From NCBI GenBank assembly GCA_902619485.1, contig CACNEF010000001.1, positions 124,001 to 188,000 on the forward strand: 64,000 bases of DNA. Reading direction: 5' to 3'. This document shows positions 16,561 through 22,964 of the stretch, one piece after another. This DNA comes from an uncultured SAR116 cluster alpha proteobacterium (GTDB lineage Bacteria > Pseudomonadota > Alphaproteobacteria > Puniceispirillales > Marisalimonadaceae). Each line of letters starts with the position of its first letter. Position 1 is the first letter of the stretch. A program made the position numbers and the translations under genes. The notes under the pieces were generated by a model. It did no database searches and had not been told where the DNA came from. It saw only the letters and a program-made list of their open reading frames with translations.

Positions 16561-18735
16561 TTATTTCATTCTAGCTTTCCTAAAATTATGCATTCTCATT
16601 AATTGTTCGGCTGCTTTATTTATTGTTGTTGATGCAGCATCAGGAATAGGTGTGCCGGGTCCAAAGATTGCTGCAACACCAGCGTCATATAAAAATTGGT
16701 AATCTTGTGCAGGGATTACACCTCCACAAACTACAAGAATATCATCAGCTTGTCTTTTTTTTAGCTCTTCTATTAATTCAGGTATCAATGTTTTATGACC
16801 TGCTGCTAGAGAGGATACACCAATGACGTGCACCCCTAAATCTATAGCAAGATTAACAGCCTCTTTAGGAGTTTGAAACAAAGTACCAATTTCGACAGAG
16901 AAACCAATATCTGTAAAAGCAGATGCAATTACTTTTGCTCCTCTATCATGACCATCTTGTCCAAGTTTAGCCATAAAGATTTTCGGATTTTCACCTGCAA
17001 TATTTTTAAAATTAGATAGAGCAATATTCACCTCTTTAAAGTCTTCTTCATTTTGATAAGAACTTTTATATACATCTTTAATTATATCTTGTTTTACTCC
17101 ATAACGACCATAGACTTCTTCTAGAGCATAAGACACCTCACCAACAGTTGCTCTTGCCTTAATTGCAACAATTGTCAAATCTAATAAGTTACCTTTATTT
17201 TCTTTTGCAGCTTGTTTTAAGTTTTGTAATGCTTTGTTGACTTCTTTAGAATTTCTAGCTTGTTTTATTTCATTTAATTTTTTAATTTGCTCTTCACGAA
17301 CTGCTTTATTATCAATATCTAAAACGTCTACCTTTTCTTTTTCATCTGATTTATATTTGTTCACTCCTACAATTACTTGTTCTCCAGAATCAATTTTTGC
17401 TTGACGTTTTGTCGCGGAAATTTCTATTTCAGATTTTGGGAAACCATTAATTACAGCTACAGTCATACCTCCCATTTCTTCGATTTTTTCAATTAATTCA
17501 TTAGATTTATCAATTAACTCTTTTGTCATACTCTCAACAAAATAACTACCTGCAAGTGGATCCACTGTATCTGTAATACCTGTTTCATGTTGAAGGATTA
17601 ATTGAGTATTTCTAGCTATTTTAGCAGAAAATTCAGTGGGCAAACCTATTGCTTCATCAAATGAATTTGTATGTAAAGATTGTGTCCCCCCTAAAATAGC
17701 CGCTAGAGCTTCAATAGTAGTTCTAATAATATTATTGTAAGGATCTTGCTCTTGTAAACTTGCCCCAGACGTTTGACAATGAGTCCTAAGCATTTGTGAT
17801 TTTGGATTTTGACAATTAAACAACTTTTTTGTCCATTGTGACCATAAATATCTCGCTGCTCTCAATTTAGCAGCTTCCATAAAAAAATTCATTCCTATAG
17901 CAAAGAAAAAGGATAATCTAGGTGCAAAATCATCAACAAATAACCCACTTTTTGTTGCTGCTCTTATGTATTCTAATCCATCTGCAATGGTAAAAGCTAA
18001 TTCTTGAACGAGAGAGGCACCTGCCTCCTGCATATGATAACCTGAAATAGATATAGAATTAAATTTTGGCATTTCTTTTGATGTAAAATTGATAATATCA
18101 GAGACAATTCTCATAGACGGTTCTGGGGGGTAAATATAAGTATTCCTAACCATGAATTCTTTAAGAATATCATTCTGTATAGTTCCGCTAAGTTCTCTTG
18201 TACTTACACCTTGTTCTTGTGCCGCAACTATATAACCTGCTAACACAGGAAGAACTGCTCCATTCATTGTCATTGATACCGACATTTTATCAAGAGGAAT
18301 ACCATCAAAAAGAATTTTCATATCCTCTACACTATCTATAGCAACACCAGCTTTGCCTACATCTCCATATACCCTCTCATGATCTGAATCGTAGCCCCTG
18401 TGAGTTGCTAGATCAAAAGCAACTGACAAACCTTTTTGTCCAGAGGCCAGATTTTTTTTATAAAATTTATTCGATTCTGAAGCTGTTGAAAAACCAGCAT
18501 ATTGCCGAATTGTCCAAGGTCTACCTGTATACATTGTGGCTTTAGGGCCTCTTAAAAATGGAGGTTCACCAGGATAGCTATCAAGATGACTAATATTTTC
18601 ATTGTCTTCTGAAGTGTATAATGGCTTTATATTAATTCCTTCTGGTGTGTCAATGAAGATATTATCAACATTTGGAGTTTTTAACTCATTAATAGCGTTT
18701 TTCTTCCAGTTTTCTAAATTATCTTTTTTCTCCAT
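16561..18735 (-). CDS. Methylmalonyl-CoA mutase (single-chain, B12-dependent)
   Basis: Adenosylcobalamin enzyme converting (R)-methylmalonyl-CoA to succinyl-CoA. The 724 residues hold both the N-terminal TIM-barrel substrate domain ([27 protein letters not shown]) and the C-terminal cobalamin domain with the base-off His motif DGHDRG near residues 593-598, followed by the GVSSLAAGH and CGGVIP strands. This resembles the large catalytic subunit (MutB/Mcm); no small subunit and no MeaB chaperone gene are nearby. It sits between pccA (24-base gap) and prpE (28-base gap to the chosen start). Confidence 0.96.
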
Positions 18736-18759: not shown

Positions 18760-20829
18760 TTATTTAAATGAAAACTCCATAATGACTTGTTCAACAGATA
18801 ACGTGTCACCTTCTTTATAATTGATTTTTTTAATAGTGCATTGTTTTGGAGCAACTAATGTATTCTCCATTTTCATTGCCTCTACAACACATAAAGATTG
18901 CCCTTCTTCAATAATCTGATTTTCTTTAACTAGTATTTTAATTAATTTTCCTGGCATTGGGCAGATTAATAGATTTGATTTATCTAAGTTTTTTATTGGT
19001 TTCATAAATTTATGATAATCAGCTACGTGTTTAGGAAACACATTTACCGACATTGTAATTCCTCTATATTGAAACTCGATATTAGTATTTTTGCAATTTA
19101 ATCTACATTGAATATTTTGAGGTTCATTTGATGGATCTTGTGAGTTTATTTTGAATGTAACTAATTTTTTTATAAAATCTTGGTACACTTCAATTGTAAA
19201 AAAATCATCAATCAGACCGTTTGTTATTTGATTTTGCATTGGCTTTATACAAACAAAAGGCAAATTTAAATTATCTTTATTGATCATATATTTCAATTTT
19301 GAAGGATTTTGTGGGGATTGCTTGTAATGAAGATAAACTTCCCACTCATCAGAAATCTGATCATTTTCAAAAATTTCAAAATTTTTTGAAATTTCACAGA
19401 TATGATATGCTAAAACTAAAGATCCTAGGGTCCACTCCAATTTCTTGTTTGGAATTATTCCTTGAAATCCTTCTCTAAATTCCTCTTCTATAAATGCAGT
19501 GTTTATATCGCCAGATTTAAATCTTTTATTTGATAAAATAGCTGAAAGAAAGGATATATTATGATCTATCCCTTCAAGTAAAAAGTTGTCTAAGTCAGAT
19601 TCCATTCTATTAATGGATAAATCACGTGTTTTCCCCCAAGAACATAATTTTGCAATCATAGGATCATAGAACATTGATACATCATCACCTTCTCTAACTC
19701 CAGTGTCATTTCTAGTAATTGTGCCATCCAGATGTTGCGTTTCTTTAGGTGGATTATATTTAGTCAATCTTCCAATCGAGGGTAGAAAGTTTTTGTAAGG
19801 ATTTTCTGCATATATTCTAGTTTCAATTGCTGAGCCATTTAAACAAACATCATTTTGGGTAATTTCTAGTTTTTTTCCATATGCTATTTTAATCATCTGC
19901 TCTACTAAATCTATACCCGTGATTAATTCAGTAACAGGATGCTCAACTTGAAGACGTGTATTCATCTCTAAAAAATAAAAGTTTTTATTTTTATCGACTA
20001 TAAATTCAACTGTACCAGCGCTACTATAGCCAACTTTTCTTGATAATTGAACGGCTTGATCACCCATTTTTTTTCTTGTTTGTTCGTCTAAAAAAGGTGA
20101 CGGCGCCTCTTCAATTACCTTTTGGTTTCTTCTTTGAATAGAACATTCTCTCTCACCTAAATAAATTACATTGCCAAAATTATCTGCTAATACTTGTATT
20201 TCAATATGTCTTGGTTCGGTGATAAATTTTTCTATAAAAATACGTTTGTCACCAAAACTCTTAAGAGCCTCACTTGAAGCTCTTTCAAAATTATCTTCTA
20301 CCTGATCACTTGAAAATGCAATACGCATACCTTTGCCGCCGCCACCCGCACTAGCCTTTATCATTACCGGATAGCCTATTTCATCTGCAATCTTTATTGC
20401 TTCATTTTTATTCTTTATTATTCCAATATGACCGGGAACAGTATTGACATTTGCTGACTTAGCGATTTTTTTAGATTCAATCTTATCTCCCATTAATGCT
20501 ATCGCTGATTTTGAAGGGCCAATAAAAGTAATTCCAGCTTTATTTAAAGCTTCTGGAAAACTAGAGTTTTCTGATAAAAATCCATACCCTGGATGCAAAG
20601 CGTCACATTTATTTTCTATACAAGCATTAATTATCAAATCGGCTCTAAGATAACTCTCTGAAGCTGGAGATGGTCCTAGATAAACTGCTTCATCTGCTAA
20701 ACGAACATGTTCTGCATACCTGTCAGCATCTGAAAAAACTGCAACAGTTTTAATTTTCATTTTTTTTGCAGTTTTAATTATTCTACAAGCTATTTCTCCA
20801 CGATTTGCAATTAAGATTTTTTTAAACAT
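18760..20829 (-). CDS. pccA: Propionyl-CoA carboxylase alpha subunit (biotin carboxylase + BCCP)
   Basis: Carboxylates its biotin with ATP and bicarbonate for transfer by PccB to propionyl-CoA. Domains: biotin carboxylase at about 1-450 (KILIANRGEIACRI; the glycine-rich ATP loop KASAGGGGKGMRIAF; EMNTRLQVEHPVTE), a BT/linker region, and a C-terminal biotinyl domain with EAMKMEN where K653 is the biotin site. 689 residues is normal for PccA and too long for AccC. The start ATG has no visible ribosome site, so translation may depend on pccB, whose stop is 18 bases upstream. Confidence 0.95.
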   Translation of the reverse strand: MFKKILIANRGEIACRIIKTAKKMKIKTVAVFSDADRYAEHVRLADEAVYLGPSPASESYLRADLIINACIENKCDALHPGYGFLSENSSFPEALNKAGITFIGPSKSAIALMGDKIESKKIAKSANVNTVPGHIGIIKNKNEAIKIADEIGYPVMIKASAGGGGKGMRIAFSSDQVEDNFERASSEALKSFGDKRIFIEKFITEPRHIEIQVLADNFGNVIYLGERECSIQRRNQKVIEEAPSPFLDEQTRKKMGDQAVQLSRKVGYSSAGTVEFIVDKNKNFYFLEMNTRLQVEHPVTELITGIDLVEQMIKIAYGKKLEITQNDVCLNGSAIETRIYAENPYKNFLPSIGRLTKYNPPKETQHLDGTITRNDTGVREGDDVSMFYDPMIAKLCSWGKTRDLSINRMESDLDNFLLEGIDHNISFLSAILSNKRFKSGDINTAFIEEEFREGFQGIIPNKKLEWTLGSLVLAYHICEISKNFEIFENDQISDEWEVYLHYKQSPQNPSKLKYMINKDNLNLPFVCIKPMQNQITNGLIDDFFTIEVYQDFIKKLVTFKINSQDPSNEPQNIQCRLNCKNTNIEFQYRGITMSVNVFPKHVADYHKFMKPIKNLDKSNLLICPMPGKLIKILVKENQIIEEGQSLCVVEAMKMENTLVAPKQCTIKKINYKEGDTLSVEQVIMEFSFK

Positions 20830-20847
20830 TATATACTTCTATTATTA

Positions 20848-22392
20848 TTATAGCGGAATATTCCCAAATTTTTTATCTGGATTTTTTTGTGTCTTATTTT
20901 TTAATTTAGAAAATGCTTGTATCAACCTAAATCTGGAATTGCTAGGTATAATAACATCATCTAAGAAACCTCTTTCTGCAGCTATAAATGGATTTGCAAA
21001 TCTTTCCTCATATTCTAATGTTCTAGTTTCTATTTTTTTTGAGTTATTTAATTCATTTCGGAAAAGAATTTCTACTGCCCCTTTTGCTCCCATTACTGCA
21101 ATTTCAGCAGTAGGCCAAGCATAATTAGCATCCCCTCTTAAATGTTTTGAGCTCATAACATCATATGCTCCACCATATGCTTTTCTGGTAATTAGAGTAA
21201 CCTTTGGTGTTGTGGCTTCCGCATATGCAAATAAAAGTTTCGCTCCATGCTTTATTATACCACCATACTCTTGTGCAGTGCCTGGCATAAACCCTGGCAC
21301 ATCTACTAATGTCAATATGGGAATATTGAAAGCGTCACAAAATCTTACAAATCTTGCTGCTTTTCTAGAAGAATCATTGTCCAAACAACCTGCTAAAACC
21401 ATAGGTTGATTTGCTACAACCCCAATAGTTTTGCCATCTAACCTTATAAAACCAATAAGAATGTTTTTTGCAAAATTTTCTTGCAACTCAAAGAAATCAT
21501 ATTCATCAGCTATTGATACAATAAGTTCTTTCATATCATACGGTAAATTTGGATTTTCAGGTATCAAAGTATCTAATGCTAAAGAAATTCTTTTTTTTGG
21601 GTCATCAGTTTTTCTTTTCACATCTAGGTATTCATTACTAGATGGCAAAAAACTGAGAAATTTTCTTAATACATTTAAAGCTTCAATATCATTATTAAAT
21701 GATCCGTCTGCTACTGAAGAGATTGTTGTATGAGTTTCAGCTCCACCTAGTTCTTCTGCGGTAACTTCTTCGGAGGTGACAGTTTTAACAACATCAGGGC
21801 CTGTTACAAACATATAACTTGTTTCTTTGACCATGAATGTGAAATCCGTCATAGCTGGAGAGTAAACAGCTCCTCCAGCACACGGTCCCATAATCATAGA
21901 AATTTGTGGGACAACCCCAGAAGCAAGAGCATTCTGCAAAAAAACATCCGCGTAACCACCTAAAGATTCAACGCCCTCTTGGATCCTTGCTCCTCCACTA
22001 TCATTCAAGCCAATGATAGGTGCTTTGTTTTGTATTGCTAATTTCATTATTTTTACAATTTTTTTTGCGTGATCTGATGATAACGAACCACCAAAAACGG
22101 TAAAATCCTGAGCATAAATATAGACTAATTTGCCATTAACTTTACCAGATCCTGTAATAACACCATCACCTGGAATAGTTTTCCCATCCATTCCAAAATC
22201 TCTTATTCGATGGATAACAAACATATCAGTTTCTTCAAATGAACCTTCATCTAAAAGAGTATTTATTCTCTCTCTTGCAGTAAGTTTCCCAAGTGAATGT
22301 TGTTTTTCTATCCTTTTTTTTCCACCACCAAGCCGTGCTTTTTCTCTTCTTGACTGTAATTCAGAAATTATTTCTCTACTTGATTTCTTGAT
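20848..22392 (-). CDS. pccB: Propionyl-CoA carboxylase beta subunit, apparent AUC start
   Basis: Carboxyltransferase subunit moving CO2 from biotin to propionyl-CoA. The N-half has [25 protein letters not shown], the C-half [13 protein letters not shown] and the [11 protein letters not shown] end. The first ATG in frame (22224, MFVIHR) would delete about 56 conserved residues: in the same frame upstream lie [18 protein letters not shown] and [10 protein letters not shown], standard PccB N-terminal text. Between the in-frame TGA just upstream and 22224 there is no ATG, GTG or TTG. AAGGAG (22405-22400) is 7 bases ahead of an in-frame ATC at 22392, giving 514 residues, the family length. An ATG at 22397 is out of frame and only 2 bases from the ribosome site. 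So translation starts at AUC, or one base is missing in the sequence. First gene of the operon. Confidence 0.88.
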
Positions 22393-22405
22393 AACATTTC
22401 TCCTT
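22390..22405 (-). promoter_or_regulatory. pccB ribosome site and putative AUC start
   Basis: Minus strand: AAGGAG (22405-22400), then AAATGTT, then ATC (22392-22390) opening the pccB frame. The intervening ATG (22397-22395) opens a frame that ends after nine codons. The same AAGGAG-N7-ATC arrangement precedes dctQ. Confidence 0.6.
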
Positions 22406-22538
22406 CAGAAAACACTAAGAAATAATATTTAGCAAAATTTGATAAAATTAACTAGTAATAATCAATCTTTGATAATTGAAAATTATTAAAATTAAATATA
22501 ACTTGTTTAAGAAAGTTTAGTTTGTTTTGGAGTATTAT

Positions 22539-22964
22539 ATGGAAGGATTTTATTCAAATATCGGAAGACTTAATCATATTGCTATTGCTGTTCCTAATAT
22601 AACAAAAGCCTCTGATATGTGGCAAAAGGCCTTAGGCGCTAATGTCAGCAAACCTCAAGCTTTACCTGAACATGGAGTTAAAGTAGTATTTATAGAATCA
22701 CCAAACACAAAGGTTGAACTTCTTGAACCGTTAAATGAGAATAGTCCAATTAGTAAGTTTCTTATGAAAAATCCAAATGGAGGTATGCATCATATTTGTT
22801 ATGAGGTTAGTGATTTAAAATCTGCCTCAAAAAAACTTAAAGAAGTAGGAGCAACAATTTTAGGTGACGGCAACCCAAAGATTGGGGCTCATGGAAACCC
22901 TGTAATATTTTTGAAACCATCAGATTTTTCAGGAACTCTCATTGAATTAGAAGAAATTAAATAA
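22539..22964 (+). CDS. mce: Methylmalonyl-CoA epimerase
   Basis: Interconverts (S)- and (R)-methylmalonyl-CoA, linking propionyl-CoA carboxylase to the mutase. It is a vicinal-oxygen-chelate fold protein with two beta-alpha-beta units; metal-binding residues are seen in RLNHIAIAV, in GGMHHICYEV and in the C-terminal GTLIELEE Glu. The ATG at 22539 is chosen because GGAG lies 6 bases ahead; an upstream TTG at 22527 lies ahead of that site. 141 residues is typical. It is divergent from pccB, completing the module on the other strand. Confidence 0.95.
   Translation: MEGFYSNIGRLNHIAIAVPNITKASDMWQKALGANVSKPQALPEHGVKVVFIESPNTKVELLEPLNENSPISKFLMKNPNGGMHHICYEVSDLKSASKKLKEVGATILGDGNPKIGAHGNPVIFLKPSDFSGTLIELEEIK

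Follow-up and report, generated by a model that had tools for sequence, protein, structure and literature searches.

A probable AUC start codon in pccB and apparent AUH starts in further conserved genes of a SAR116-cluster genus

The pccB locus

The window, the whole 64-kb stretch of DNA that was analysed, comes from a draft genome (G000; 1.62 Mb in 43 contigs, 77.91% complete) and carries pccB within a group of genes with related functions (Table 1). The predicted PccB is a full-length carboxyl transferase (PF01039, E 9.9e-188). The best NCBIfam model, TIGR01117, scored under its cut-off and no NCBIfam model passed; the name is nevertheless sound, because membership of the carboxyl transferase family is joined by biotin carboxylase, mutase and epimerase genes as neighbours. 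Similar genes in named records were mostly proteobacterial, at 64 to 72% identity.

An earlier note on this DNA, made from the sequence alone, had claimed that pccB lacks a standard start for 56 codons up to the upstream TGA, and that AAGGAG stands seven bases before an in-frame ATC. Both claims were borne out on the window sequence, which has no ATG, GTG or TTG in the pccB frame from the TGA to codon 56. The first in-frame ATG (22224-22222, minus strand) follows 56 codons after the ATC. A 100-codon open frame also runs antisense to the pccB start (window 22130-22432, plus strand) and is probably a shadow frame.

Table 1. Features at and around the start of pccB (window positions).
Feature	Position	Strand	Remarks
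pccB, propionyl-CoA carboxylase-type carboxyl transferase subunit, 514 aa counted from ATC	20848..22392	-	Pfam PF01039; name from neighbours
ATC, probable start codon of pccB	22390..22392	-	sequence; ATH column in 26/26 genus genomes; fMet would be expected
Shine-Dalgarno AAGGAG	22400..22405	-	sequence; 7 nt before ATC
In-frame TGA closing the pccB frame upstream	22405..22407	-	four codons between TGA and ATC
Out-of-frame ATG, short frame ending in TAA	22395..22397	-	2 nt after AAGGAG; not conserved
pccB codons 2-56, conserved coding stretch from ATC to first in-frame ATG (22222-22224)	22225..22389	-	
pccA-type biotin carboxylase subunit, ATG start	18760..20829	-	downstream of pccB, likely operon
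Methylmalonyl-CoA mutase, ATG start	16561..18735	-	downstream of pccB, likely operon
Methylmalonyl-CoA epimerase, divergent neighbour of pccB	22527..22964	+	TIGR03081, E 3.1e-47

The pccB start column in related genomes

Forty genomes of the same genus were searched, and 26 of them, the window's own included, yielded a pccB ortholog (E up to 1e-200). The frame was intact in all 26, and the start column held ATC in 13 genomes, ATT in 12 and ATA in one (ATH for the three together); since these genomes are drafts related by shared ancestry, the counts are not independent. Between the upstream stop and the ATH codon, 23 of the 26 orthologs had no in-frame ATG, GTG or TTG, while L024, L113 and L114 had an in-frame ATG upstream of it. 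The position of the upstream stop varied among genomes, and in L025 and L026 a single codon separates it from the ATT. A purine-rich Shine-Dalgarno motif was found at every ortholog: AAGGAG in 17, GGGGAG in five, GGGGG in two, and TGGAG and GGGAGG in one each.

These alignments bear on the possibility that a base was lost, i.e. that the true pccB has an in-frame ATG and the window sequence is wrong or that of a recent mutant. The fragmented and incomplete state of the draft would allow such an error, but the same frame recurs in 26 of 26 genomes with ATC, ATT or ATA in place of ATG, and we give this explanation practically no weight. The one-base deletion that the earlier note had kept as an alternative is thereby excluded, and its proposed alignment of the locus in relatives showed no in-frame ATG at the column in any of the 26 genus genomes.

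Outside the genus the column reads differently. All six order relatives that were fetched (L027-L032, of 15 strong matches in the order) had ATG at this position, and in L027 the ATG AAA aligns ungapped with the ATC AAG of the window. As a control, 80 pccB loci of other bacteria were scanned by script. An in-frame standard codon lay at or before the N terminus in 76 (the last such codon being ATG in 65, TTG in six and GTG in five), a result that speaks for the availability of a standard codon at this place and not for its use. In the remaining loci an ATG followed a few codons into the match (L038, L057, L077) or the sequence was cut at its end (L112).

Translation might instead begin at the out-of-frame ATG (22397-22395) and then shift into the pccB frame. 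This ATG is present in 16 of the 26 orthologs; its absence from the other ten (L005, L020-L026, L113, L114) means that an ATG conserved in another frame, as a programmed frameshift would call for, was not found at pccB. It also lies only 2 nt from the Shine-Dalgarno motif. The earlier note had doubted this start on account of its spacing, and the comparison makes it very improbable.

Codons 2-56 differed between the window and L021 (genome G021) by 25 synonymous and no non-synonymous changes, in agreement with the earlier reading of this stretch as intact, conserved PccB sequence. The corresponding counts were 26 and none against L020, and 23 and ten against the more distant L025. Close relatives gave small counts that are not clearly selective (synonymous/non-synonymous: L005 2/2, L013 2/3, L016 3/4, L018 3/3). 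Given the 25 to 0 ratio against L021, codons 2-56 are very probably translated and under purifying selection. This evidence also weighs on a shorter PccB that would start at a downstream standard codon. Such a codon exists in every genome: in 15 of the 26 it is an ATG at a distance of 56 codons (22224 in the window), in the remaining 11 a TTG at 9 to 46 codons (11 codons in L020-L023, nine in L026 and L114). Its position, however, varies by species, no downstream standard codon lies at Shine-Dalgarno distance from AAGGAG, and the codons that would be lost are those free of non-synonymous change against L021. We therefore regard a shorter protein as unlikely.

The AUC start put forward in the earlier note is thus supported by an ATH codon and a preserved frame in all 26 genus genomes. 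We put the probability that pccB is translated from this AUC, or from AUU or AUA in sister species, at roughly 0.9 on these sequence comparisons. A FastTree phylogeny was built from the 26 genes with the start codon left out, and parsimony on it required at least six changes among C, T and A at the third base of that codon. That G never stands at this position says little about selection, methionine being likewise absent from 35 of 37 other isoleucine columns.

ATH starts in other genes and the initiator tRNA

Stop-to-stop frames were compared between 1.23 Mb of G000 and 1.19 Mb of the same-genus genome G021 (92% PccB identity). Of 828 G000 frames, 79 had at least six aligned codons ahead of the first standard codon. 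On inspection nine of these were judged real genes needing an ATH start: infC, pccB, hemD, dnaX, clpB, tlyA, a tcuA-like flavoprotein gene and two epimerase-like genes, the second of which presumably merits that name. The match between G000 and G021 is weak for both epimerase-like genes (54% and 22% identity), and the second lacks an ortholog in the fetched part of G021. Of the nine, pccB alone lies within the window. The need for an ATH start thus concerned about 1% of the surveyed frames of this one genus (9/828, G000 against G021), a figure to be read in the knowledge that chance standard codons hide further cases and that some of the 828 frames are spurious. A reverse survey with a stricter filter kept 21 of 819 G021 frames, pccB, dnaX and tlyA among them. 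Further candidates in G021 were genes that we take to be nitrilase-like, HD-domain and EamA-type. Two genes exchange ATH for ATG between the genomes: the tcuA-like flavoprotein gene has ATT in G000 and ATG in G021, and the nitrilase-like gene has ATA in G021 and ATG in G000.

The rest of the 79 frames were dropped as antisense shadows, rRNA or tRNA regions, short alignments or genes with plausible standard starts. A presumably oxidoreductase-like frame (G000 C2:87206) was set aside as ambiguous. So was a frame that we take to be MoaC-like (G000 C2:19697-20266), in which the first standard codon, a TTG, comes after 23 aligned codons. We also observed a 21-base stretch, GGAGAGAAAGAGTTTACGGTC, before the ATG of a presumably photolyase-like gene; it is identical in G000 (region C1:662141-662200) and G021 (region C1:110252-110311) and is perhaps a regulatory element.

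Start columns were then compiled for five of the genes. infC, which begins with AUU in E. coli, where IF3 autoregulates its own synthesis, and with AUA in S. aureus, is the known IF3 case and served as positive control for ATH starts. ATA stood at the expected place in all 26 readable infC loci out of 30 in the order, 13 of them in this genus, and a few infC frames also had a standard codon further upstream. The dnaX column held ATA in 19 and ATC in two of the 21 genomes examined (of 26 with that N terminus), the clpB column ATA in 18 and ATT in one of 19 examined (of 25 with an unbroken match), and the tlyA column ATA in 21 and ATT in one of 22 examined (of 31). For hemD, 22 of the 25 genus genomes with that N terminus had ATT, and the other three had TTG or ATG nearby. 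Upstream of these codons no in-frame standard codon was found in 21 of 25 genomes for hemD, 19 of 21 for dnaX, 18 of 19 for clpB and 19 of 22 for tlyA, a few stretches having ended before a stop was reached. The Shine-Dalgarno motifs of dnaX and clpB are weak.

For dnaX the start is narrowed to the ATA/ATC column, as in G034 a stop directly precedes the ATA and G027 is without the second ATT. By eye, a relative from family f3 of the order (G044, stretch L361) has ATG. In the G000 frame of dnaX the first standard codon is codon 146, and the stretch ahead of it contains GVGKTT, which we take to be the P-loop; a downstream start in dnaX would cost the protein this motif, a further point against downstream starts. 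tlyA has an ATG nine codons downstream of the ATH codon in 19 of 22 genomes, and its position inside the S4 domain makes it the less likely start. dnaX, clpB, tlyA and hemD thus appear, from their sequences, to begin with AUH like pccB, and the recurrence of ATH columns in these four genes indicates that such starts are not special to pccB.

The initiator tRNA gene of G000 (C1:629965) has the anticodon CAU. This rules out a changed initiator anticodon in G000, with no sign of recoding, and at an AUH codon it would leave the third base mismatched. Its anticodon stem (C1:629986-630011, L230) carries A29:U41 instead of G29:C41, in a numbering that we assume to apply. The same replacement was seen in all 32 matches, which came from families f1, f2, f3 and f4 of the order and from 29 of 61 genomes, the other 32 giving no match; the G29:C41 pattern occurred in none of the 40 genus genomes. 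A29:U41 may permit ATH starts. As the sole cause it was rejected: being found in four families of the order, among them ones whose fetched members start pccB with ATG, it cannot alone explain a trait of the genus. G000 also holds three copies of the 3' half of the initiator tRNA gene (C1:631273 and C1:635759, L230; C1:722262, L234), and partial copies occur in some of the other genomes of the genus (L209, L211, L212, L217). In appearance they resemble remnants of attachment sites left by integrated islands.

Regulation, tolerance and known systems

In the mechanism that we propose for pccB, AAGGAG would place the ribosome at the AUC, and the ordinary initiator tRNA (CAU) would pair with its first two bases, so that PccB would start with fMet. 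Initiation at such a codon is expected to be inefficient. IF3, encoded by infC with its AUA start, could keep pccB, dnaX, clpB, tlyA and hemD low or couple them to IF3 activity. By analogy with infC, pcnB, sigR and ccpN we expect low translation of pccB, and its sensitivity to IF3 is quite probable. That the set of AUH starts serves a regulatory purpose is a more tentative proposal, somewhat short of an even chance.

The AUH starts could also be real and have no regulatory role, if the lineage tolerates near-cognate starts and ATG drifts to ATH at little cost. We consider this not far from an even prospect. Tolerance is suggested by the lineage-specific exchanges with ATG in the tcuA-like flavoprotein and nitrilase-like genes and by the free drift of the pccB third base among C, T and A; the A29:U41 initiator stem would also fit it. 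The codon type is, however, fairly constant elsewhere (ATA in 21 of 22 tlyA and 18 of 19 clpB genes, ATT in 22 of 25 hemD genes), which suggests regulation, and A29:U41 is shared with order families that have ATG at pccB. Under either account, we think it rather likely that AUC, AUU and AUA form a standing class of start codons in this genus, used by about 1% or more of its genes, the core replication gene dnaX included, either as a regulon of metabolic and maintenance genes that IF3 tunes or through relaxed start-codon discrimination.

Gene finders restricted to ATG, GTG and TTG would, by this reasoning, shorten PccB by 56 residues in the window genome. From DnaX they would remove 141 residues in G000 and 123 in G021, the ATP-binding motif included, and any control at the level of translation would go unseen. 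Several conserved AUH starts in one lineage would offer a natural set in which to study the role of IF3 outside infC and the extent to which the rules for start codons can drift.

AUH codons are already known as non-canonical starts, and the published cases found in the open-licence PubMed Central literature concern single or few genes per organism. No genus in which four or more conserved genes, dnaX included, appear to use AUH starts in addition to infC and pccB was found in that literature. Third-base mismatch starts belong to the class that IF3 discriminates against (PMC5472188), E. coli infC and pcnB use AUU (PMC1780047; for pcnB also PMC13009471), and a title terms pcnB the second chromosomal example in E. 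coli (PMC1780047, PMC13009471). AUU was likewise inferred for lepA of two bacteria (PMC1780047). Four E. coli genes are listed with ATT starts in the Colibri database, and re-annotation gave three genes of B. subtilis the starts ATC, ATT and CTG; atypical starts other than ATT fell mostly in defective or unknown genes (PMC1805508). These annotated non-NTG starts are of the same kind as the probable ATC start of pccB. In some published single cases the start was inferred, as for pccB, from a conserved protein that would otherwise be truncated, in the excerpts seen without a genus-wide comparison.

infC and pccB are alike in keeping an AUH start across species. infC, however, is the regulator's own gene, whereas pccB, dnaX, clpB, tlyA and hemD were not found as members of this class in the literature searched. 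The conserved GTC start of sigR in Streptomyces is repressed by IF3 and has a GTT variant in two of 34 species (PMC5472188). It resembles pccB in its conserved non-standard codon, strong Shine-Dalgarno motif and minor codon variant; it differs in having GTC where pccB has ATH, and the IF3 effect was demonstrated for sigR, whereas for pccB it is expected by analogy. Expression from AUU and AUA starts in S. aureus reached about 10% of the AUG level in poor medium, and up to 30% for ccpN when the medium was rich (PMC13009471). The cvfC1 AUU and ccpN AUA of that species are conserved AUH starts like that of pccB, but they have extended Shine-Dalgarno motifs, number two genes besides infC, and belong to another phylum (PMC13009471). 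A further comparable gene is pcnB, which is limited by its AUU start; it is termed the second case in E. coli, whereas in the present genus the trait appears to extend, beyond infC and pccB, to at least four conserved genes.
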